DNA from: Histomonas meleagridis
Taxonomy: Eukaryota > Parabasalia > Tritrichomonadida > Dientamoebidae
Length of the DNA: 64,000 nt
Direction of reading: 5' to 3'
Assembly (NCBI GenBank): GCA_020186115.1
Contig: WSYJ01000186.1
Location: 2,215,501 to 2,279,500, forward strand
In this document: positions 12,544 through 56,871 of the stretch, piece after piece
Layout: each line of letters starts with the position of its first letter
How positions within the stretch are numbered: the stretch's first letter is position 1
Program-made: the position numbers and the translations under genes
Notes under the pieces: generated by a model
The model's input: only the letters and a program-made list of their open reading frames with translations
Told to the model about the DNA's origin: nothing
Databases searched by the model: none

Positions 12544-14715
12544 ATGACCTTTAACTCATTCCTCAATGATCTTAATGAGGAACAACTTCAAGCAGTTCAT
12601 GCCTCTTTTGAAGAGCCTTTATTTGTATATGCTGGCGCAGGCTCAGGAAAGACACGGACTTTAATATGTCGAATTTCAAACATGATTACAAATGGGATTA
12701 ATCCAGATAACATTCTTGCAATTTCATTCACAAGGAAATCCACAGAAGAAATCAGAGAAAGACTTCGTGCTTTTATTGGTCCACGTGGATCTAATGTTGC
12801 CACTATGACATTTCATAAACTCTGTTTTCAAATACTCCGAGAAAATCCTTTTATTCTTGGTTTTGGTCAAAAACCATTTCATGTTGCCGATCCATCAACA
12901 CAACGAAAAATTGTCCAAAATGCATGTATTCAACTTCTACAAAAATCCAAAAACAAGAACTTATCAGCCCAAAATCCAAATGTCCTTCGTATTATGACCA
13001 TTAAAATGCTTAATTTTGTTCGACGTGCCAAGACACTTTTTAAATCACCTGATGATTTCAAAGATGATTTATCCTTTGTACTTCACTATTATCAAGATCA
13101 ACTTAAACTTCATCGATTAATAGATTTTAATGATTTTATGTCGTTTACTGAACAATTACTTAAACAATATCCACGAGTTGCATATGAATATCGGAAAATA
13201 TATCAATACATATTAATTGATGAATTTCAAGACACTTCAATTAGTAACTTTACAATCATCAAATATATATTAGGTAATTCCCAACGTATAACAATATTTG
13301 GAGATTGGCGTCAATCGATATATGGATTTCGAGGGGCTAATCCATCGAACATTAGTTCATTTTTAGAGTTATTTCCGAATTCCAACAAAGTTATCTTAAA
13401 CAAGAATTATCGAAGTACTCAAACCATATTAAATGCAGCACAATCATTAATCGTTCATAATTCAGATGATAATTTTTCATCACCATTAATCTCCAAGCAA
13501 AAACTTGGCGATTTAATACGTATCATTGAAGCTGAAGATTCATTATCAGAAGCAGATAAGATATGTACTGAAATCGAAAAACTTGTATATCCTGGAAGTG
13601 AATTCCAATATCGTGACATAGTTATAATGTTTCGTGTCCGTAAAATCGCAACAGATATTGAAATGGAATTATTTCGACGTAATATTCCTTATACACATAA
13701 AAGAGGCTTTGGCTTCTTCATGAAGAAAGAAGTCAGAGATTTGATATCATATGTTCGATTAATATTATCATATGATAATGTTGAAATGTTATCACAAAAT
13801 GAAAATGATCAAATTATTACTAATGATGTAGAATCAGTTATTAATGTACCATTTCGAAACATTGGACAAAATGTAATTAAAACACTTAAAAACAAAAGTA
13901 TTAAAGAAGGGAAAAACTTATTACAAATCATGAAAGAAATTACAGAGAATGAAATTGGTAAAACTACTTATAAACGAATACAAAAATTCCTTAAATTACT
14001 TGAGAAAATGAATCGACAAATATATATAATCAATAAAAGCATAGCAGTAAACACAGCATTACAAGAGATTATCGAAGCTACGCATATATTAGACGAAGAG
14101 AAAAACGAAATAGAAACTAATAATGAAACAATCATTGACGAATTCGATGAAATTAATGACGCGTTAAACGATTACTTAAATGATAAAAAAGAAACTATGG
14201 AACTATTAGTCGAAGAAGCAAAACGTTTCCAATGGAATATATTACAATCGAATGAACAAAATCAAATTTATTCAACTGCGGAAAACTTAAAAAAGTTTAT
14301 AAACTCAATAACATTCGATATAACTGGCGACACATCGAAAAACGCTATAACTTTGTCGACAATACACCAAATGAAAGGGCTCGAAAGCCCAATCTGCTTC
14401 ATAATGCGATTCAACCAGGGGGTGCTCCCGGTGTCTGATAGCGTGACAGCAGAAAGCGGAATCGAAGGCTTCGGCTCGGCAACAACGTTAGAGGAGGAGA
14501 GGAGAATCGCGTACGTGGCGCTGACGAGGGCGAAGCAGAAGCTGTTCATCAGCTTCTGCAAATACGCAAAAAATAAGCCGCTGGAGCCGTCGCAGTTTTT
14601 GGACGAAATTAGCAACAGCTGCATAGCAAAGTCACAGATCAACTTGGAGGACAAGAAGGAAATAATGCAGCTGATGTCAATGGCAGACGACTTCGATGAC
14701 ATAGAAATAGAGTAA
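12544..14715 (+). CDS. UvrD/Rep-type superfamily 1A DNA helicase
   Basis: The 723-residue protein carries the full SF1A set in order: Q-motif region EEQLQAVHA; Walker A GAGSGKT (31-37); motif Ia ISFTRKST; motif Ib MTFHKLCF; Walker B DEFQDTS (about 226-232); motif III FGDWRQSIYGFRGAN; motif IV NKNYRSTQTI; motif V IHQMKGLE; and motif VI EERRIAYVALTRAKQKL (about 650-665). Such enzymes unwind DNA 3'-5' in repair and recombination. The bacterial-like architecture suggests lateral origin or a UvrD/Srs2-type eukaryotic enzyme; phylogeny would decide. A Glu/Asn-rich insert lies near 515-565. The last ~300 bases are much richer in G+C than the rest. Three Myb-type boxes precede the ATG, and a minisatellite starts 35 bases after the stop. 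Confidence 0.93.
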   Translation: MTFNSFLNDLNEEQLQAVHASFEEPLFVYAGAGSGKTRTLICRISNMITNGINPDNILAISFTRKSTEEIRERLRAFIGPRGSNVATMTFHKLCFQILRENPFILGFGQKPFHVADPSTQRKIVQNACIQLLQKSKNKNLSAQNPNVLRIMTIKMLNFVRRAKTLFKSPDDFKDDLSFVLHYYQDQLKLHRLIDFNDFMSFTEQLLKQYPRVAYEYRKIYQYILIDEFQDTSISNFTIIKYILGNSQRITIFGDWRQSIYGFRGANPSNISSFLELFPNSNKVILNKNYRSTQTILNAAQSLIVHNSDDNFSSPLISKQKLGDLIRIIEAEDSLSEADKICTEIEKLVYPGSEFQYRDIVIMFRVRKIATDIEMELFRRNIPYTHKRGFGFFMKKEVRDLISYVRLILSYDNVEMLSQNENDQIITNDVESVINVPFRNIGQNVIKTLKNKSIKEGKNLLQIMKEITENEIGKTTYKRIQKFLKLLEKMNRQIYIINKSIAVNTALQEIIEATHILDEEKNEIETNNETIIDEFDEINDALNDYLNDKKETMELLVEEAKRFQWNILQSNEQNQIYSTAENLKKFINSITFDITGDTSKNAITLSTIHQMKGLESPICFIMRFNQGVLPVSDSVTAESGIEGFGSATTLEEERRIAYVALTRAKQKLFISFCKYAKNKPLEPSQFLDEISNSCIAKSQINLEDKKEIMQLMSMADDFDDIEIE

Positions 14716-14750
14716 TTGATGAAGCGATTTGTTGTGTAAATCGAATGACA

Positions 14751-16392
14751 TGTGAATGAATTTGTATGTTTTGAATGAGTAATGTGTTATGTGAATGAAT
14801 TTGTATTTGTTGGATGAGTAATGTGTTATGTGAATGAATTTGTATGTTTTGAATGAGTAATGTGTTATGTGAATGAATTTGTATGTTTTGAATGAGTAAT
14901 GTGTTATGTGAATGAATTTGTATGTTTTGAATGAGTAATGTGTTATGTGAATGAATTTGTATGTTTTGAATGAGTAATGTGTTATGTGAATGAATTTGTA
15001 TGTTTTGAATGAGTAATGTGTTATGTGAATGAATTTGTATGTTTTGAATGAGTAATGTGTTATGTGAATGAATTTGTATGTTTTGAATGAGTAATGTGTT
15101 ATGTGAATGAATTTGTATTTGTTGGATGAGTAATGTGTTATGTGAATGAATTTGTATGTTTTGAATGAGTAATGTGTTATGTGAATGAATTTGTATGTTT
15201 TGAATGAGTAATGTGTTATGTGAATGAATTTGTATGTTTTGAATGAGTAATGTGTTATGTGAATGAATTTGTATGTTTTGAATGAGTAATGTGTTATGTG
15301 AATGAATTTGTATGTTTTGAATGAGTAATGTGTTATGTGAATGAATTTGTATTTGTTGGATGAGTAATGTGTTATGTGAATGAATTTGTATGTTTTGAAT
15401 GAGTAATGTGTTATGTGAATGAATTTGTATGTTTTGAATGAGTAATGTGTTATGTGAATGAATTTGTATGTTTTGGATGAGTAATGTGTTATGTGAATGA
15501 ATTTGTATGTTTTGAATGAGTAATGTGTTATGTGAATGAATTTGTATGTTTTGAATGAGTAATGTGTTATGTGAATGAATTTGTATGTTTTGAATGAGTA
15601 ATGTGTTATGTGAATGAATTTGTATGTTTTGGATGAGTAATGTGTTATGTGAATGAATTTGTATGTTTTGAATGAGTAATGTGTTATGTGAATGAATTTG
15701 TATTTGTTGGATGAGTAATGTGTTATGTGAATGAATTTGTATGTTTTGAATGAGTAATGTGTTATGTGAATGAATTTGTATGTTTTGAATGAGTAATGTG
15801 TTATGTGAATGAATTTGTATGTTTTGAATGAGTAATGTGTTATGTGAATGAATTTGTATGTTTTGAATGAGTAATGTGTTATGTGAATGAATTTGTATGT
15901 TTTGAATGAGTAATGTGTTATGTGAATGAATTTGTATTTGTTGGATGAGTAATGTGTTATGTGAATGAATTTGTATTTGTTGGATGAGTAATGTGTTATG
16001 TGAATGAATTTGTATGTTTTGAATGAGTAATGTGTTATGTGAATGAATTTGTATGTTTTGAATGAGTAATGTGTTATGTGAATGAATTTGTATGTTTTGG
16101 ATGAGTAATGTGTTATGTGAATGAATTTGTATGTTTTGAATGAGTAATGTGTTATGTGAATGAATTTGTATGTTTTGAATGAGTAATGTGTTATGTGAAT
16201 GAATTTGTATGTTTTGAATGAGTAATGTGTTATGTGAATGAATTTGTATGTTTTGGATGAGTAATGTGTTATGTGAATGAATTTGTATGTTTTGAATGAG
16301 TAATGTGTTATGTGAATGAATTTGTATTTGTTGGATGAGTAATGTGTTATGTGAATGAATTTGTATGTTTTGGATGAGTAATCTGTTATGTG
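14751..16392. repeat. 39-bp minisatellite, about 42 units with higher-order structure
   Basis: The unit is GAATGAGTAATGTGTTATGT followed by GAATGAATTTGTATGTTTT (39 bp). Three unit types are seen at the junction: A (GTATGTTTTGAATGAG), B (GTATTTGTTGGATGAG) and C (GTATGTTTTGGATGAG). Their order forms a 15-unit (585 bp) pattern AAAAABAACAAACAB that occurs twice, the second time with one extra B and a final C. Nearly all other positions are identical. Stops occur in all frames, so it is not coding. It directly follows the helicase stop and probably lies in or near its 3' end. Confidence 0.97.
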
Positions 16393-46616: not shown

Positions 46617-49600
46617 TCAAACAAGGACATCAGAAACCAAAAAATACAAAAGCACTGCGAAACTCAATGCAAAGAAGATATTAAAATCGTTTTGCAATGT
46701 TTCCTCGCCGTTCAACACTTGTTGCACCATTTCGTTCTTCACTTTCTTCTTCTTTTTATCGCTGACTTTCTCTTCTTTATCTTTTCCATCGCTTGAGTCA
46801 GAGAACGTAAATTGTTCTCCTTCGAGTTCGATGTCTCTCGAAACGATTTCCGGTTCGCTATCGCTGCTGCTGCTGCTTTCTTTCTCTTTGTTATTCTCTG
46901 CGATTTTCATTATCTTTAAGTTAATCTCCTTAAATTGTTTCGAATTTTCCGATTTCTCTGATTCGATCTCTTTTTGCATTTTATCGTTCGTTGTCAATAT
47001 GTCTTTGATTGTGTCATTGACTTTGTTCAGTTCGTCACTTTGCTGATGAAGTGCTCCAGAAATTTCATCGATTTTATGTGTGAGCGATTCATACAAATTG
47101 TCTTTCGACTTGTCCTTAATTTTGGCTTCGTTCTCATCTTCGCTATCACTGCTGCTGCTACTGCTGCCGCGCGATTTGTTGTCGCTTTCGAGTTTCGCTT
47201 GTAGCGCAGTAAGCTTGGACTTGAGCTCAATGAGTTCCTCGGCCGGAGCCTCCGCCTTCTGGCTGCTGCTGCTGAGCTGGCCGGTGATCGTGACAATATT
47301 CGCTTTGATGGTGTCGATCTCGTCGACTTTGTCTTCGAGTTTGTCTTTGAGCTCTTTGTAGTCATCTTTGATCTTCTCGATTTCTTCTGCTTTGTCTTTG
47401 AGCTCTTTGCACTCGTTTCTGAGCGCGTCGATTTCGACTGCTCTGTCTTTGATGCTTTCGATGTCGTCGAGCTTCTCTTTGAGCTCTTTGTATCTGTCCT
47501 TAAGCTTTTTGACTTTGTTCTTGATCTTCTCCATGTCGTCGATCTTCTCTAATACCTTTTCGATCTCCTTAATGTTCTCGATGCCCTCGAGTTTTTCTTT
47601 AAGTCTTTCAAGTTCTTCGATCTTTTCGACGATCTTTTCGATCTCTTTAATGTTTTCGATGCTTGCGACATTTTCCTTAAGCTTTTCGAATTCTTCGATG
47701 TCGACTTTGATTTTCTCTACTTCGTCGATCTTAACTTTAAGTTTATCATATTCTTCAACTTTAGATTTAAGCTTATCGAATTCTTCGATATCAAGTTTCA
47801 CCTTTTCAACTTCTTCAACTTTAACTTTGAGTTTATCATATTCTTCAATGTTAACTTTGAGTTTCTCGATTTCTTCGACTTTAGTTTTAACTTTATCATA
47901 TTCTTCGATCTTAACTTTGAGTTTTTCGAACTCTTCAATGTCGACTTTGATTTTCTCGATTTCTTCGATCTTGACTTTAAGTTTATCATATTCCTCAATT
48001 TTAACTTTAAGTTCTTCGAATTCTTTAATGTTAACTTTGATTTTCTCGATTTCCTCAACTTTAACTTTAATTACTTCGATTTCTTTAACATATTCTTTGA
48101 TTTTCTCTATCTCTTTAACATATTCTTTGATTTTCTCGATTTCTTTAACATATTCCTTAATTTTCTCTATCTCTTTAACATATTCCTTAATTTTCTCGAT
48201 CTCTTTAACATATTCTTTAATCTTTTCGATCTCTTCGATTCTTATTATTATCTTTTCGACTTCTTGAATGTTAACTTTGACCTTTTCTATTTCTTCGATT
48301 CTAATTTTAATCTTTTCGATTTCCTGTATAATATATTTAATCTTCGGAACATTTTCAACTCTATCATCGAACTCTTCGACGATAATTTTGAGCTCATCGA
48401 AGTCGCCTATTTTATCTTTAATGTCATCTATAACATCTTTAATACTTTCGATTGCTTCAATTTTATCTTTAATATCGTCGACTTTATTTTTCACCTTATC
48501 AATTTCATCAACTTTATCCTTAATATCATCGACCTTTTCTTTAATTTTATCAATGTCGTCAATTTTATCATTAATTTCATTAATTTGATCTTTAATCTTT
48601 TCAATTTCTTCAATCTTATCTTTGTTTTCATTAACTTTATCTTTAATCTTATTCATATCATCATTGATATCTTTAATATTTTCAAGTTTATCTTCAAATT
48701 CTTTAATCTTTTCATTTGTTACTTTCTTATCTTTCTCTAATTGTTCAACTTTGTTCTTTAATTCTTCCATATCCATCATCACAACTGGTGATGCTTCTGG
48801 TTTATCATCATTTTGTTCTTGTGCTGTTTTCGTAGCTAATGTTCTGATTTGATCTTTCATTGTCTTTGAGTCTAATTCGGATTGTTCTTTAATTCCATTA
48901 ATGTTTTGTTGTAATTCTTTAAGTTTCTTTTGAAGTTCATCAATTTCTTCTTTACGTTTCTTGTTCTCTTCCTTACGTTTCTTGGACTTCTTTTGTAATT
49001 TCTCAATGTCTTCTTTATCGCCTTTCTCATCAAGTTTTCCATTGATTATATTAATGTTATTTTCGATGTTTTGTAACTTGGAATAAATCTCACCAATCGA
49101 TTTGAGTTGTTCTTTAATTTGTTCAACATCTTTGTTATCGGCAATTCGCTTTTGTAATGCCTTAAGTTCATTCCGCAATGCTTGTATTGCATTGTTCAGT
49201 GATTCTATCATTTTCTCAAGTGTTTTCATTCGTTGGACATGTGATGTGAATTTCTTTTCAATTAAATCGCGTTGTACTGAAAGCTCATCCTTTTGTTGGG
49301 TAATAAGATTGCCTTGTTTAACAAGAAGTTGATCATGTTCTTGGACAGTGGAAATTAAGTCTTCATAGCGTTCCATTTGATCTGTTGCCATTGGAACATC
49401 TACTGATTTGTTGGTGGATGGTTGTGAGGTGTCTTTTCCAATTCCTTTGATTTCTTCTTTGACTTCTTTGATGATTTCTTCTTGTTGGCGATTGTTATTT
49501 AAGATATCTTGGATTGTCTGATCAAGTTCGGATTTGAATTTGGTGAATTCTTCTTGAAGCTTTTCGACGTCTGGCTTAAGGTCTGGGATTTCACCATTGG

Positions 49601-50114
49601 CTGAGGCTGTATCATCTGTAGGAACAAGATTTGAACCTGCTTGTTCAATATCAAGCTTGGATATATCTCCTTTGGATTTACGATGTGCACGAGATTTCTT
49701 TTTAGGTGTACGAGGACTTTCTGTGAGTTGATTTGCTTTTGAATTTTCCAAATCAGCTTTAAGAGTTTCTACCATTTCTCTAAGTTGTGTAATTTGGATG
49801 GTTGTTTCAGTGACATCAGAAGAACGTGCTTTAGAACTCCTTCTATGACCATGACTTTCTGATTTTTGCTGAATTGCGTTTGTTAACTCTTGAATTTGTT
49901 TATCTTTCTCTTCCCTTAATTGTTCGATTACTTGGTTTTGATTTCGGATTGATTCACGAAGTGCTTCAATCTCTTGCTTCAATCCCTCTTGTTGTTTTAA
50001 TTGTTCCTTCAATTCTTTTATTTCGGAACTAAGTCTTTTAATAGACTTCCTGCTTGAGGAACCATGTGGTGATGTTGCCTGTTTAGGCGGGCTACTCGAT
50101 GAGGAGTCGCTCAT
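46617..50114 (-). CDS. Tail-anchored coiled-coil protein with 10-residue repeats
   Basis: ATG 50114 (MSDSSSSSPP) is the first in-frame ATG; the frame opens 63 bases earlier with TTG. The 1165-residue product has a Ser-rich start, heptad coiled coil from about 25 to 560 with breaks, then about 22 consecutive ten-residue repeats (for example EIEKIKEYVK five times), more coiled coil, and two Ser-rich stretches (RGSSSSSSDSEDENE; ESSSSSDSEPE) that look like CK2 targets. It ends in a basic patch (KKKKKVKNE) followed by a single hydrophobic helix FFALSFAVLLYFLVSDVLV, the hallmark of a tail-anchored membrane protein. The form suits a golgin-type tether or other organelle tether. Around 47000-47500 the G+C content is markedly raised. 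Confidence 0.85.
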   Translation of the reverse strand: MSDSSSSSPPKQATSPHGSSSRKSIKRLSSEIKELKEQLKQQEGLKQEIEALRESIRNQNQVIEQLREEKDKQIQELTNAIQQKSESHGHRRSSKARSSDVTETTIQITQLREMVETLKADLENSKANQLTESPRTPKKKSRAHRKSKGDISKLDIEQAGSNLVPTDDTASANGEIPDLKPDVEKLQEEFTKFKSELDQTIQDILNNNRQQEEIIKEVKEEIKGIGKDTSQPSTNKSVDVPMATDQMERYEDLISTVQEHDQLLVKQGNLITQQKDELSVQRDLIEKKFTSHVQRMKTLEKMIESLNNAIQALRNELKALQKRIADNKDVEQIKEQLKSIGEIYSKLQNIENNINIINGKLDEKGDKEDIEKLQKKSKKRKEENKKRKEEIDELQKKLKELQQNINGIKEQSELDSKTMKDQIRTLATKTAQEQNDDKPEASPVVMMDMEELKNKVEQLEKDKKVTNEKIKEFEDKLENIKDINDDMNKIKDKVNENKDKIEEIEKIKDQINEINDKIDDIDKIKEKVDDIKDKVDEIDKVKNKVDDIKDKIEAIESIKDVIDDIKDKIGDFDELKIIVEEFDDRVENVPKIKYIIQEIEKIKIRIEEIEKVKVNIQEVEKIIIRIEEIEKIKEYVKEIEKIKEYVKEIEKIKEYVKEIEKIKEYVKEIEKIKEYVKEIEVIKVKVEEIEKIKVNIKEFEELKVKIEEYDKLKVKIEEIEKIKVDIEEFEKLKVKIEEYDKVKTKVEEIEKLKVNIEEYDKLKVKVEEVEKVKLDIEEFDKLKSKVEEYDKLKVKIDEVEKIKVDIEEFEKLKENVASIENIKEIEKIVEKIEELERLKEKLEGIENIKEIEKVLEKIDDMEKIKNKVKKLKDRYKELKEKLDDIESIKDRAVEIDALRNECKELKDKAEEIEKIKDDYKELKDKLEDKVDEIDTIKANIVTITGQLSSSSQKAEAPAEELIELKSKLTALQAKLESDNKSRGSSSSSSDSEDENEAKIKDKSKDNLYESLTHKIDEISGALHQQSDELNKVNDTIKDILTTNDKMQKEIESEKSENSKQFKEINLKIMKIAENNKEKESSSSSDSEPEIVSRDIELEGEQFTFSDSSDGKDKEEKVSDKKKKKVKNEMVQQVLNGEETLQNDFNIFFALSFAVLLYFLVSDVLV
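47664..48323 (-). repeat. 30-bp coding repeat, about 22 decads
   Basis: Each 30-bp unit encodes a decad such as EIEKIKEYVK, EYDKLKVKIE or EFEKLKVKIE. Five adjacent copies of EIEKIKEYVK lie at about 48080-48233. Other units tend to follow a three-unit cycle (I-type, F-type, Y-type), giving a 90-bp super-repeat. Confidence 0.85.
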
Positions 50115-50665
50115 TTCAATTGAAGCAGACCCTCTGAAATTTTTTTTTGTTTTTATCAAAAATGAAAAAGCTTTCAAAAATAGAAAAGTTCATCAGAAAA
50201 AGTAAAAATTGAGAAATTACAGTGGTGGTTTATCGACTATTTTTTCTTGCACCTTCGTTTATGATTAAAATGAAATTTTTGAAGATTGAGCAACTGGAAA
50301 CATAACGCCTGATGAAAGCGAAACTTTACTTCATATAACTTTTGTTTTTTAATAATAATTAAAAGATTATTCATTTTTTATTGAAATAATTTCATGTTAT
50401 TTCTAATTAAAAATTAAACTAATTGAATAGTTTAATATTGAGTTTAACATGAAATTACTTTTTTTTCATTTCTTATCTTAAATGATAAATCATATTTTAA
50501 TGTATCAAAAATGTTTGATTTATTTGATAAGCAACTAATAAAGCTAGCATTGTCTTTTAATGTTGTAAATGTATTATGTAATGAGATAAAAAAGTTTTTA
50601 ATATTTTTAAACTTTTTCGAATCGGGGTGCTCCAAAATAATATTAAACGTTCATATCACCTCCAA
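50115..50665. other. Divergent intergenic region
   Basis: No gene is seen. AT-rich; a 63-codon minus-strand frame at 50444-50635 has no motif and is likely chance. CGTTCATATCACCTCCAA (50648-50665) directly precedes the ORC1-like ATG and may hold its initiator. Confidence 0.4.
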
Positions 50666-54549: not shown

Positions 54550-56871
54550 TCAAAGAGCATTCTTGAGCACTTCGTCGTCTATTGTCCACGGCTCATTTAA
54601 GCAATTTACAAGAACCGAAATTTGCTTGAAGACTTTACCGCCTGAGTGTCTATTGATTGTCGCTTGCTCAGCACCGAAATCGGATGCGACTCCAGCGCCA
54701 TAAATTTCCATCATATGTCTATAAGCCTTTGTGACTTCTCTTGTATCAGGTACATTAAATTGTATCAAAGGCTTTAAGCCCTTAACAGGTTCATATAATT
54801 GTGTCATATCGGGGAATCTATCGCCGAATTTGTTTCTACCGATTAAAGCATAAATTCCGGTAATGTTAATGTGATCACTAATTGTTACGAATCTATCAGT
54901 TAATTGAGGATTTGTTGCTATTGCAGCGTTGATCGCAATAATTTGTATTTTCTTTTGTGCGATTGCACGAACTAAAGCACGTGTAGCGACTGCAATCATT
55001 ACTTTCTTACCGAATAACTCTCCATGATTTAACTTAAGTCCTTTAACTTCTACAACATTTGGTAATTTAGATTTAAGATCATTATAGAACTTAAACTCTT
55101 TCTTGAATAATAATACATCTTCAACATCTGGTAATGCTTCAGCAATTGCATTAACTTCTTCTGGATCTTCTTGTTGATTTTGCTTACGTGATGGAGTATC
55201 ATTCCATTGTATGGCCTTCTTGTCAGTGGCATTGAAGGATGGTGTAGCACCTGCACTTGTTCCTGGGAATTTGCTAATTGTTGTTTTGATTGCTTGTGAA
55301 ATTTCATCAGACTTTGAGCGACATGATGATAAAATGGCTTCAATGTTATCATTAGAGGTAAGAATTGCATTATATGCACCATCAACAAATCCTTGCGCTT
55401 GTAATCCAATCTTACGGGCCATCATCAAACCTTTGACTGTACCTAATGTAATATGTGTAGCACCACACATTTGTAAATGCTTGGCATCACTTTGCGTTGG
55501 GAATTCAGGTCCATGGAATGACGCAAGAATTGACTTGTTCTTGATGCTTGCTTCTGGAGATTCGATTGGACACTTGCAGATTTCGGGTATGACTGTTGGA
55601 TGTTCAAAGAATGGAATAACATCAGTAACAACTGCTAATCCTTTTTCACCAAATGCACCAGCTTGGAATGTTTGGATATATGATTTAGCTCCAAGACGTT
55701 TAGCTAGTTTGATTAAATAATATAATTCATGTTCTTGTAAACCTGTCAAATTGCGGAGACCGTTAACAACAAATAATTGTTTTCCATTTAAGATACCAAT
55801 GTTAAGTTTCAAGGAGGTGTGTTGTAATATTGGGAAGTTGGGTAATTCATTGCAGTCAATTGTAACTTTGACTTCGAAGTCTTTAAGTTCATGACATGCG
55901 CCAAGAACAACAAGACCATCAATCTTTGTCTTTCCAAATTGTTTGGCGTATTCATCAATTTCTTTATCAGTGACAAATGATTCTGGAATGGCCATATTGA
56001 TGTTATGATCATCTCCTTCGATAACTGGAATTGGGAATTCTTTGAGTGGAGTGCGCTTAATGACTTCGGAGATTAAGGCGCGCATGTTTGGTTCACCAGC
56101 TTTGGCTGCAATTGTGACATCTTCATGTGATAATTTGACACCGTCAACACCAGCGGCCTTGTTGGTAACAAATGACATGGCAAAGACTGGAACACCTAAT
56201 TCTTTCATTGCAACAACTTCAGGGACTGTTGACATACCAAAGTTAGTGGCACCAACTTTGAATTGTCCTTCAACTTCAGCTGATGTTTCATATGTAGGAC
56301 CAAAGTTGTACATGTAAACACATCCTTTTGTTTGAAGATGCATTTCTTCGGCAACTTGTTTAGCTACTTCAGTAGCAGCTGCATCATACATATCAGCTTG
56401 GATAAGATGATTAAAGTCTTTGAAACAAAGAGGTTCTTCGGTGTAACCACGATGTGTAGTATTCATGTGATCAACAATTGGGGTAAGATCTCCTGGATTA
56501 AGATCAGGATCACGTGTACCAGCAGCATTGGTAAGAATGCAAAGCTTGCAACCACACATTGCAAGAAGACGTATTGCAAATTGAACTTCATGTGGAGCAA
56601 GTCCTTCATATTGATGAGAACGACCAGAAAGACAAAGAACTTTGCGATCACCAACGAGACCATAGATAAGGCAACCGAAGTGACCTGGAACTGTGGTATC
56701 AAGCATTTGTGGGATTTCACTGTATGGAATACGGATAGAATTTACAAGGACATCGCCATAACTTCCAAGACCACTACCAAGGATAATTCCTATATCTGGC
56801 CTATCTTTAATTCGGTCTTTAACATAGTTGCAAGCTTCATTGAGCCTTTGAACGTAAGTTGATGCTTTCAT
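54550..56871 (-). CDS. Triple-domain purine nucleoside phosphorylase fusion
   Basis: With ATG 56871 (MKASTYVQRLNEA) the product has 773 residues, against about 290 for ordinary trimeric PNP. Domain 1 (1-285) keeps every key residue: GSGLG with Ser33, His86 in SGRSHQYEG, TNAAG, Glu195 in GPTYETSAEV, GMSTVPE, Asn237 in VTNK, and His249. Domain 2 (about 290-540) shows the same fold but has lost these (NGLRNLTGLQEHE, FHGPEFPTQ, LGTVKG, VDGAYN). Domain 3 (about 570-773) has lost the phosphate loop and His86 region but keeps SDHINITG and GDRFPDM. Trimeric PNP cleaves inosine and guanosine to base plus ribose 1-phosphate; trichomonads depend on purine salvage. The start follows TTCACTTTTTCTT. An upstream in-frame non-ATG extension was rejected. 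Confidence 0.92.
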   Translation of the reverse strand: MKASTYVQRLNEACNYVKDRIKDRPDIGIILGSGLGSYGDVLVNSIRIPYSEIPQMLDTTVPGHFGCLIYGLVGDRKVLCLSGRSHQYEGLAPHEVQFAIRLLAMCGCKLCILTNAAGTRDPDLNPGDLTPIVDHMNTTHRGYTEEPLCFKDFNHLIQADMYDAAATEVAKQVAEEMHLQTKGCVYMYNFGPTYETSAEVEGQFKVGATNFGMSTVPEVVAMKELGVPVFAMSFVTNKAAGVDGVKLSHEDVTIAAKAGEPNMRALISEVIKRTPLKEFPIPVIEGDDHNINMAIPESFVTDKEIDEYAKQFGKTKIDGLVVLGACHELKDFEVKVTIDCNELPNFPILQHTSLKLNIGILNGKQLFVVNGLRNLTGLQEHELYYLIKLAKRLGAKSYIQTFQAGAFGEKGLAVVTDVIPFFEHPTVIPEICKCPIESPEASIKNKSILASFHGPEFPTQSDAKHLQMCGATHITLGTVKGLMMARKIGLQAQGFVDGAYNAILTSNDNIEAILSSCRSKSDEISQAIKTTISKFPGTSAGATPSFNATDKKAIQWNDTPSRKQNQQEDPEEVNAIAEALPDVEDVLLFKKEFKFYNDLKSKLPNVVEVKGLKLNHGELFGKKVMIAVATRALVRAIAQKKIQIIAINAAIATNPQLTDRFVTISDHINITGIYALIGRNKFGDRFPDMTQLYEPVKGLKPLIQFNVPDTREVTKAYRHMMEIYGAGVASDFGAEQATINRHSGGKVFKQISVLVNCLNEPWTIDDEVLKNAL

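Follow-up and report, generated by a model that had tools for sequence, protein, structure and literature searches.

How does a single protein chain make use of three purine nucleoside phosphorylase (PNP) domains when only one of them carries a catalytic set? The question is raised by a gene of Histomonas meleagridis that lies in a 64,000-nucleotide stretch of contig WSYJ01000186.1, which was analysed whole and is called the window here. The coding frame is on the minus strand, with its ATG at 56871 and its stop codon at 54550-54552, and gives an uninterrupted protein of 773 aa (Table 1). The predicted chain (P0001) could be aligned over its full length with P0002-P0022, 21 closer relatives that measure 741-805 aa, and one relative from T. 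foetus, P0005, starts at the same place as the ATG chosen here. Directly upstream of this ATG stands TCACTTTTTCTTT, which we take to resemble a parabasalid initiator. Searching the H. meleagridis genome (43,276,120 bases, 121 contigs) with the PNP chain returned one match, the chain itself.

Table 1 Features of the three-domain PNP gene in window coordinates, with residue numbers of the encoded chain.
Feature	Position	Strand	Evidence
Entire coding sequence, 773 aa and a stop codon, readable without an intron	54550..56871	-	Open frame; full-length alignment with relatives
Domain 1, complete trimeric-type PNP catalytic domain, residues 5-273	56053..56859	-	S33, H64, R84, H86, Y88, N115, E195, M213, S214, N237, H249
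Domain 1 interface loop, residues 134-162, rewritten, G-x-R-F lost	56386..56472	-	N137 and R141 at human positions 137 and 144
Domain 2, PNP fold without catalytic set, about residues 302-535, borders approximate	55267..55968	-	hhalign 99.8% (family); residue table
Domain 2 conserved face GPEFPTQSD, residues 454-462	55486..55512	-	Acidic where human PNP has Glu205, Pro where it has Glu201
Domain 3, shortened PNP domain without catalytic set, about residues 569-773, borders approximate	54553..55167	-	hhalign 100% (family); residue table
Domain 3 interface loop, residues 666-693, DHINITGIYALIGRNKFGDRFPDMTQLY	54793..54876	-	8 of 9 domain 3 columns conserved at >=0.9 lie in the loop
R685-F686, equivalent of human R158-F159	54814..54819	-	Present in 59/59 chains

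Elsewhere in the window, the minus strand at 46617-50177 encodes a charged, repeat-rich protein of 1186 aa with repeats around 'EIEKIKEYVK', which by eye is coiled-coil-like with a hydrophobic C-terminal stretch. Positions 14001-16000 show an extreme GC skew of 0.58 at 31% GC, and the only frame of at least 150 aa that overlaps them, helicase-like by eye, ends at 14715.

The sequence-only reading had recognized three fused PNP domains without giving the strand, and profile-profile comparison of domains 2 and 3, next to a plain domain 1, bears this out. Pfam sees domain 1 alone in the H. meleagridis chain (27-272), and in NCBIfam domains 2 and 3 appear as extra stretches. A profile that we built from single-domain PNPs, of which the best 120 matches listed contained 115, gave 280 bits for domain 1, with weak scores for domain 2 (13 and 16 bits) and domain 3 (30 bits). 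In the distant relative P0023, the same profile matched all three domains (292, 101.5 and 118 bits), and it found no domain 2 match in seven of the 59 aligned chains described below (P0029, P0033, P0055, P0063, P0067, P0079 and P0080). Comparing the aligned family with PNP in hhalign yielded probabilities of 99.8% for domain 2 (E 2e-28) and 100% for domain 3 (E 1e-48); with P0001-P0022 alone, the values were 98.3% and 99.3%.

The chain belongs with the trimeric type of PNP. It passed the cut-offs of PRK08202 (300.7 bits, cut-off 218) and TIGR01697 (273.8 bits, cut-off 197.1), each with its best stretch in domain 1, and not those of the narrower models TIGR01700 (245.9 versus 293.35) and TIGR01698 (225.8 versus 302.6). 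P0001 had 12 NCBIfam matches at E values up to 0.1, and no model of the hexameric, DeoD type was among them. As the initial reading had it, domain 1 contains the catalytic residues S33, H86, E195 (in GPTYET), N237 (in TNK) and H249, which correspond to human S33, H86, E201, N243 and H257; we checked the human numbering against the letters of PDB chains. The trimeric-PNP set S33, H64, R84, H86, Y88, N115, E201, N243 and H257 is present in domain 1 of H. meleagridis and nearly always in the family. Over 58 chains (P0073 is cut), R84, H86, Y88, E89, E201, M219, S220 and N243 were found in 58/58, H64 in 57, N115 and H257 in 56 and S33 in 54.

The H. meleagridis genome holds five other PNP_UDP_1 matches: two MTA/SAH nucleosidases above cut-off, two 287-aa genes with a weak, below-cut-off likeness to DeoD or uridine phosphorylase, and a fifth that adjoins masked bases. 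The two MTA/SAH-nucleosidase genes (L002 and L003) are near-alike, and the L003 frame stops early relative to L002, after 'SIRS'. A frame of 22,867 aa around one PNP-like match was rejected as an artefact of masked bases. None of the four other matches that could be classified is a trimeric-type PNP and the three-domain chain is the sole genome match to itself; from these sequence comparisons, it is therefore probably the organism's 6-oxopurine PNP.

To place this chain among its relatives, we considered 149 distinct proteins (P0001-P0149), one search contributing its best 120 of 302 matches, and picked 59 chains by hand, by length and a readable third domain. All 59, including that of H. meleagridis, share the same design, and they come from parabasalids, Barthelona, an amoebozoan, a rhizarian and unnamed sources. 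The fusion that we looked for in other parabasalids was found in T. foetus (P0005, P0020) and T. musculus (P0014); these are the only three named besides H. meleagridis in what we call the parabasalid-like group (P0001-P0022), and no relative named T. vaginalis was among the matches listed. Beyond parabasalids, it occurs in Planoprotostelium fungivorum (Amoebozoa), Plasmodiophora brassicae (Rhizaria), Barthelona sp. PCE (Metamonada) and two records named 'Eukaryota sp.'. The ANDGO tag of P0079 presumably denotes the jakobid Andalucia godoyi. In P0045 of Planoprotostelium fungivorum, a histidine phosphatase domain (PF00328, 920-1263) follows the three-domain PNP, either as a fusion or through a joined gene model. 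Viral contigs gave 12 pattern matches, none of which was a relative; among phages, 13 records matched, none over more than 80% of the query, and the five matches listed covered domain 1 alone.

The 90 proteins left unaligned comprise P0046, in which domain 1 is interrupted and the domain 3 loop is present; 19 models without a readable domain 3 (P0032, P0034, P0040-P0044, P0047, P0058, P0059, P0061, P0069, P0081-P0085, P0087 and P0088); three two-PNP chains (P0060, P0064 and P0076); and 67 others, mostly bacterial-type fusions of PNP with another enzyme. The 19 family-like models, several with read-through-looking tails, likewise have domain 1 loops without G-x-R-F and are neutral as to domain 3. 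Seven of them (P0042, P0081-P0085 and P0088; 572-655 aa) contain domain 1 with such a loop and part of domain 2, and end before domain 3. They are perhaps cut at introns and could hide a two-domain variant. P0150, a 281-aa model that consists of domain 1 only and comes from a contig of 4.2 kb, is 83% identical to domain 1 with a rewritten loop and would be a free domain 1 if the model is not cut. Many chains of about 660 aa, mostly unnamed, join PF01676 to PNP (among P0035 and P0086-P0149), one of them (P0140, Clostridia) named phosphopentomutase; other PNP fusions involve PF01791 (P0089 and others) or cytidine deaminase domains (P0091). Neighbouring steps of nucleoside salvage seem to be fused often.

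The residue table of the 59 chains supports the earlier view that the catalytic set is gone from domains 2 and 3. The H. meleagridis protein shows two isolated matches: R373 in domain 2, at human R84, and N756 in domain 3, at human N243. No alignable catalytic position of domain 3 keeps its residue as the usual one (H64, R84 and H86 were not alignable); position 243 is Asn in six of the 59 chains, H. meleagridis included. The catalytic residues of domain 2 are likewise gone as a consensus (H86 and H257 not alignable), with Arg at position 84 in five chains, again including H. meleagridis. Position 200 of domain 2 is still Phe in 32/59 chains, position 201 is Pro in 52/59, position 205 is acidic in 58/59, and the Tyr88 position is Leu in 38 and variable in the rest. 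Given this loss, we count domain 1 alone as PNP proper, and domains 2 and 3 as PNP-derived domains.

In 115 single PNPs, R158 and F159 were each present in 114. Domain 3 of the H. meleagridis chain retains this element, KFGDRFP at residues 681-687, as had been noticed from the sequence, and [GK]-x-R-F is found in the domain 3 loop of 59/59 chains (58 with Gly, P0019 with Lys), a count conditional on the chains having been picked for a readable third domain. By contrast, [GK]-x-R-F occurs in none of the readable domain 1 loops of the 59 chains. R-F outside the [GK]-x context was seen in the domain 1 loop zone of 15 chains, the printed examples being mostly R154-F155, and in the domain 2 zone of five. 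The proposal that domain 1 lacks the loop altogether did not hold: the loop is rewritten rather than missing, with 29 residues versus 28 in domain 3 and a median of 30 in single PNPs (from the 79 of 115 that were measurable by pattern). Throughout P0001-P0022, it retains a His that is immediately preceded by Phe or Tyr (22/22).

When the hand-made alignment was checked by an automated count with hmmalign, 14 of the 59 active-type domains followed downstream by G-x-R-F were given a Phe at position 159, a result that on its face speaks partly against that alignment. Inspected by eye, nine of these 14 were [FY]-x-H motifs in loops from among P0002-P0017, two (P0057 and P0067) had the shifted R154-F155, one (P0031) a P-A-P-F stretch, and the last two (P0060 and P0064) belong to double PNPs. 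Among active-type domains without a downstream G-x-R-F, Phe was placed at 159 in 192/206: 184 had an ordinary-looking R-F or Q-F loop, seven were misplaced family-like loops without G-x-R-F (P0042, P0081-P0085 and P0088) and one was P0150. The 14 with neither comprise 12 that look like cut family models, P0019, whose domain 3 loop reads K-x-R-F, and P0267, with R-W.

The loop is one of two faces that PNP subunits turn to each other. According to PMC9916683, loop 141-168 of one calf subunit meets residues 87-91 and 196-205 of the next, N137/N145 meet N199/E205 across the interface, and F159 is the one residue that a subunit contributes to the neighbouring site. When we scored conservation by face, domain 3 had kept its loop face (mean 0.59, versus 0.28 for the other face and 0.33 for the domain) and domain 2 its 87-91/196-205 face (0.56, versus 0.275 for the loop face and 0.29 for the domain), while domain 1 combined a conserved site face (0.74) with a relaxed loop (0.38; domain 0.51). 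Eight of the nine domain 3 columns conserved at 0.9 or more fell within the loop, which spans 28 of 241 columns (hypergeometric p 1e-7, kinship ignored).

We propose that a homotrimer became one chain in which only domain 1 catalyses and domains 2 and 3 serve as structural subunits in a ring around its site, an arrangement that we regard as likely on the strength of these sequence patterns. Judging from the conserved residues, domain 1 would bind phosphate and a 6-oxopurine nucleoside as trimeric PNP does, presumably acting on inosine and guanosine. The long loop of domain 3, with R685-F686, would lie over the open side of the domain 1 site as the neighbouring subunit does in a homotrimer; the rewritten loop of domain 1 would pack on the GPxFPxxxE face of domain 2, which would close the ring by gripping this loop; and the contact between domains 2 and 3 would be degenerate. 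With catalysis confined to domain 1, and with the kept faces of domains 3 and 2 serving it, the two derived domains would thus be structural subunits that hold one site in shape. The ring itself, its direction and its closure within one chain are all parts of this model. Points that weigh against it are the Phe or Tyr that the domain 1 loops of P0001-P0022 have themselves, the choice of the 59 chains by a readable third domain when 19 family-like models lack one, and the domain-1-only model P0150.

Closure within one chain is where the model meets its first competitor, in which domain 3 of one chain serves domain 1 of another and the enzyme is an obligate oligomer instead of a monomer, all else being the same. 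Intramolecular and intermolecular contacts look alike in sequence, and the roughly 28 residues leading from domain 1 to domain 2 are enough for either arrangement. Each chain nevertheless has one live site and one live loop, so that a second chain is unneeded, and we consider this form unlikely, if worth keeping in mind.

The direction of the ring requires other evidence. In the favoured ring, the domain 3 loop faces domain 1, the domain 1 loop faces domain 2 and the domain 2 loop faces domain 3. In the opposite ring, the domain 3 loop would pack on the GPxFPxxxE face of domain 2 as a conserved clasp and the degenerate domain 2 loop would cap the domain 1 site, leaving it without an aromatic neighbour. 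Mean face conservation fits both directions equally, each having one high-high, one high-low and one low-low interface. The opposite ring would pair the domain 3 loop and the domain 2 face, the best-conserved elements of the dead domains, and the domain 2 loop is often hydrophobic and then has a conserved Pro at human 159-160 (Pro at position 160 kept at 0.88). Yet the invariant F686 would then face a variable domain 2 pocket, with Leu in 38 chains at the Tyr88 position.

Charges at the interface also speak to direction. Positions 137 and 205 face each other across the calf interface, and acid would meet acid there in nine cases in the favoured ring (1, 0 and 8 of 58 chains for its three contacts) versus 20 in the opposite one (15 between domains 2 and 1, 5 between domains 3 and 2, and 0). 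Four of 58 chains have lost Glu205 in domain 1 (Q, Q, Q and M; P0066, P0068, P0070 and P0071); all four have an acid at position 137 of domain 3, compared with only one of the 54 others (p 1e-5, kinship ignored). The same four also have an acid at 137 of domain 2, as the opposite ring would have it, but so do 15 of the 54 others (p 0.009, kinship ignored). In the domain 1 loop, 57/58 chains have a basic residue at position 137, 143 or 144, R137 and a basic 144 mostly replacing one another (R137 only in 17, basic 144 only in 34, both in three, neither in four). The single exception, P0080, is likewise alone in lacking an acid at 205 of domain 2. In the opposite ring, this basic residue would face domain 3, where position 205 is acidic in only 16/58.

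These compensations amount to about two evolutionary events, the four chains being one clade and P0080 one divergent chain. Tests of independent pairs on the tree had too few events to discriminate, and mutual information between faces was dominated by kinship and made no choice between the rings. At the scale of those two events, the charge changes favour the domain 3 loop meeting the domain 1 site and the rewritten domain 1 loop meeting domain 2, and we judge the opposite ring rather improbable.

A further possibility is that domains 2 and 3 have another job, such as ligand sensing or partner binding, and that the domain 3 loop is kept just for the folding of domain 3. A role for Arg158 inside its own domain is conceivable, and human F159A is reportedly nearly fully active, being cited in PMC9916683 as showing no significant change in activity. 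Against such a job, mean identity among distant chains is only 19% in domain 2 and 23% in domain 3, versus 40% in domain 1, both derived domains are poorly conserved outside their interface faces, and their best-conserved columns lie mainly on those faces; we hold this explanation to be improbable. The F159A result bears as well on the sequence-only claim that domain 3 completes the domain 1 site within the chain. The positional part of this claim stands, since the Arg-Phe is in domain 3 of 59/59 chains and absent from readable domain 1 loops, and the interface compensation fits; its catalytic sense is weakened by F159A. Calf PNP with six interface residues changed to Ala, Phe159 among them, is mainly monomeric and has no activity, according to the same paper. 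Because the single change is tolerated and the sixfold change is not, F686 and the domain 3 loop probably scaffold the site, shaping and stabilizing it, rather than take part in catalysis. Tandem genes joined by an assembly or gene-model error, as some insect two-PNP chains (P0064, P0076) could be, can be dismissed here with near certainty, since the H. meleagridis frame is single and intronless and 58 other aligned chains, some transcriptome-derived by name, have the same design.

How old is this arrangement? In a quick tree, a branch with SH-aLRT 99 separated the 58 domain 1 sequences from the 32 other PNP domains included, which came from fusions and from single PNPs of human, insect, bacterial or unnamed origin. 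This is in keeping with a single origin of the three-domain family, gene transfer being the alternative. On balance, we lean towards an ancient and widespread eukaryotic class of one-chain hetero-trimer PNP that arose once and whose two pseudo-PNP domains have persisted through very long periods chiefly because of the faces that they turn to one site. Databases already label such chains 'purine-nucleoside phosphorylase', and searches of the open-licence literature of PubMed Central listed no paper on a three-domain or single-chain PNP.

Why PNP is a trimer, when nearly all residues of the site come from one subunit, is asked in PMC9916683, where the answer is that the trimer is needed for site geometry and the monomer made there is inactive. 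The family seems to be evolution's complementary experiment, in which two of the three sites have been lost and the best-preserved parts of the derived domains are mainly their contact surfaces with a neighbour. If the chains do form one ancient class, they represent a natural experiment on PNP's need for a trimer. If the ring is right, one residue or face could be changed at one place only, which is impossible in a homotrimer, and the question of why PNP is trimeric would thereby become directly testable.

What is known already is the trimeric PNP itself and, in the herpesvirus dUTPase, the presumed passage of an enzyme from homotrimer to one chain with one site. With the human and calf trimeric PNPs (TIGR01697, PRK08202), domain 1 shares the catalytic residues, including Glu201 and Asn243, the two named for 6-oxopurine enzymes in PMC9916683. 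Those PNPs are homotrimers of single-domain chains of about 30 kDa with a site in each, whereas the H. meleagridis protein has three domains and one catalytic set in one chain. The two-PNP chains (P0060 and the insect P0064) are likewise fused PNP domains, but both of their domains score at least 300 bits, P0060 has G-x-R-F in both, and they grouped with single PNPs in the tree. An analogy, and no more than that, is offered by the monomeric dUTPases of herpesviruses. According to PMC12524310, duplication and fusion presumably turned a homotrimeric enzyme into a single chain there, with one composite site and with motifs lost in other places. The dUTPases differ in fold and family, in having two domains instead of three and in their changed motif order.
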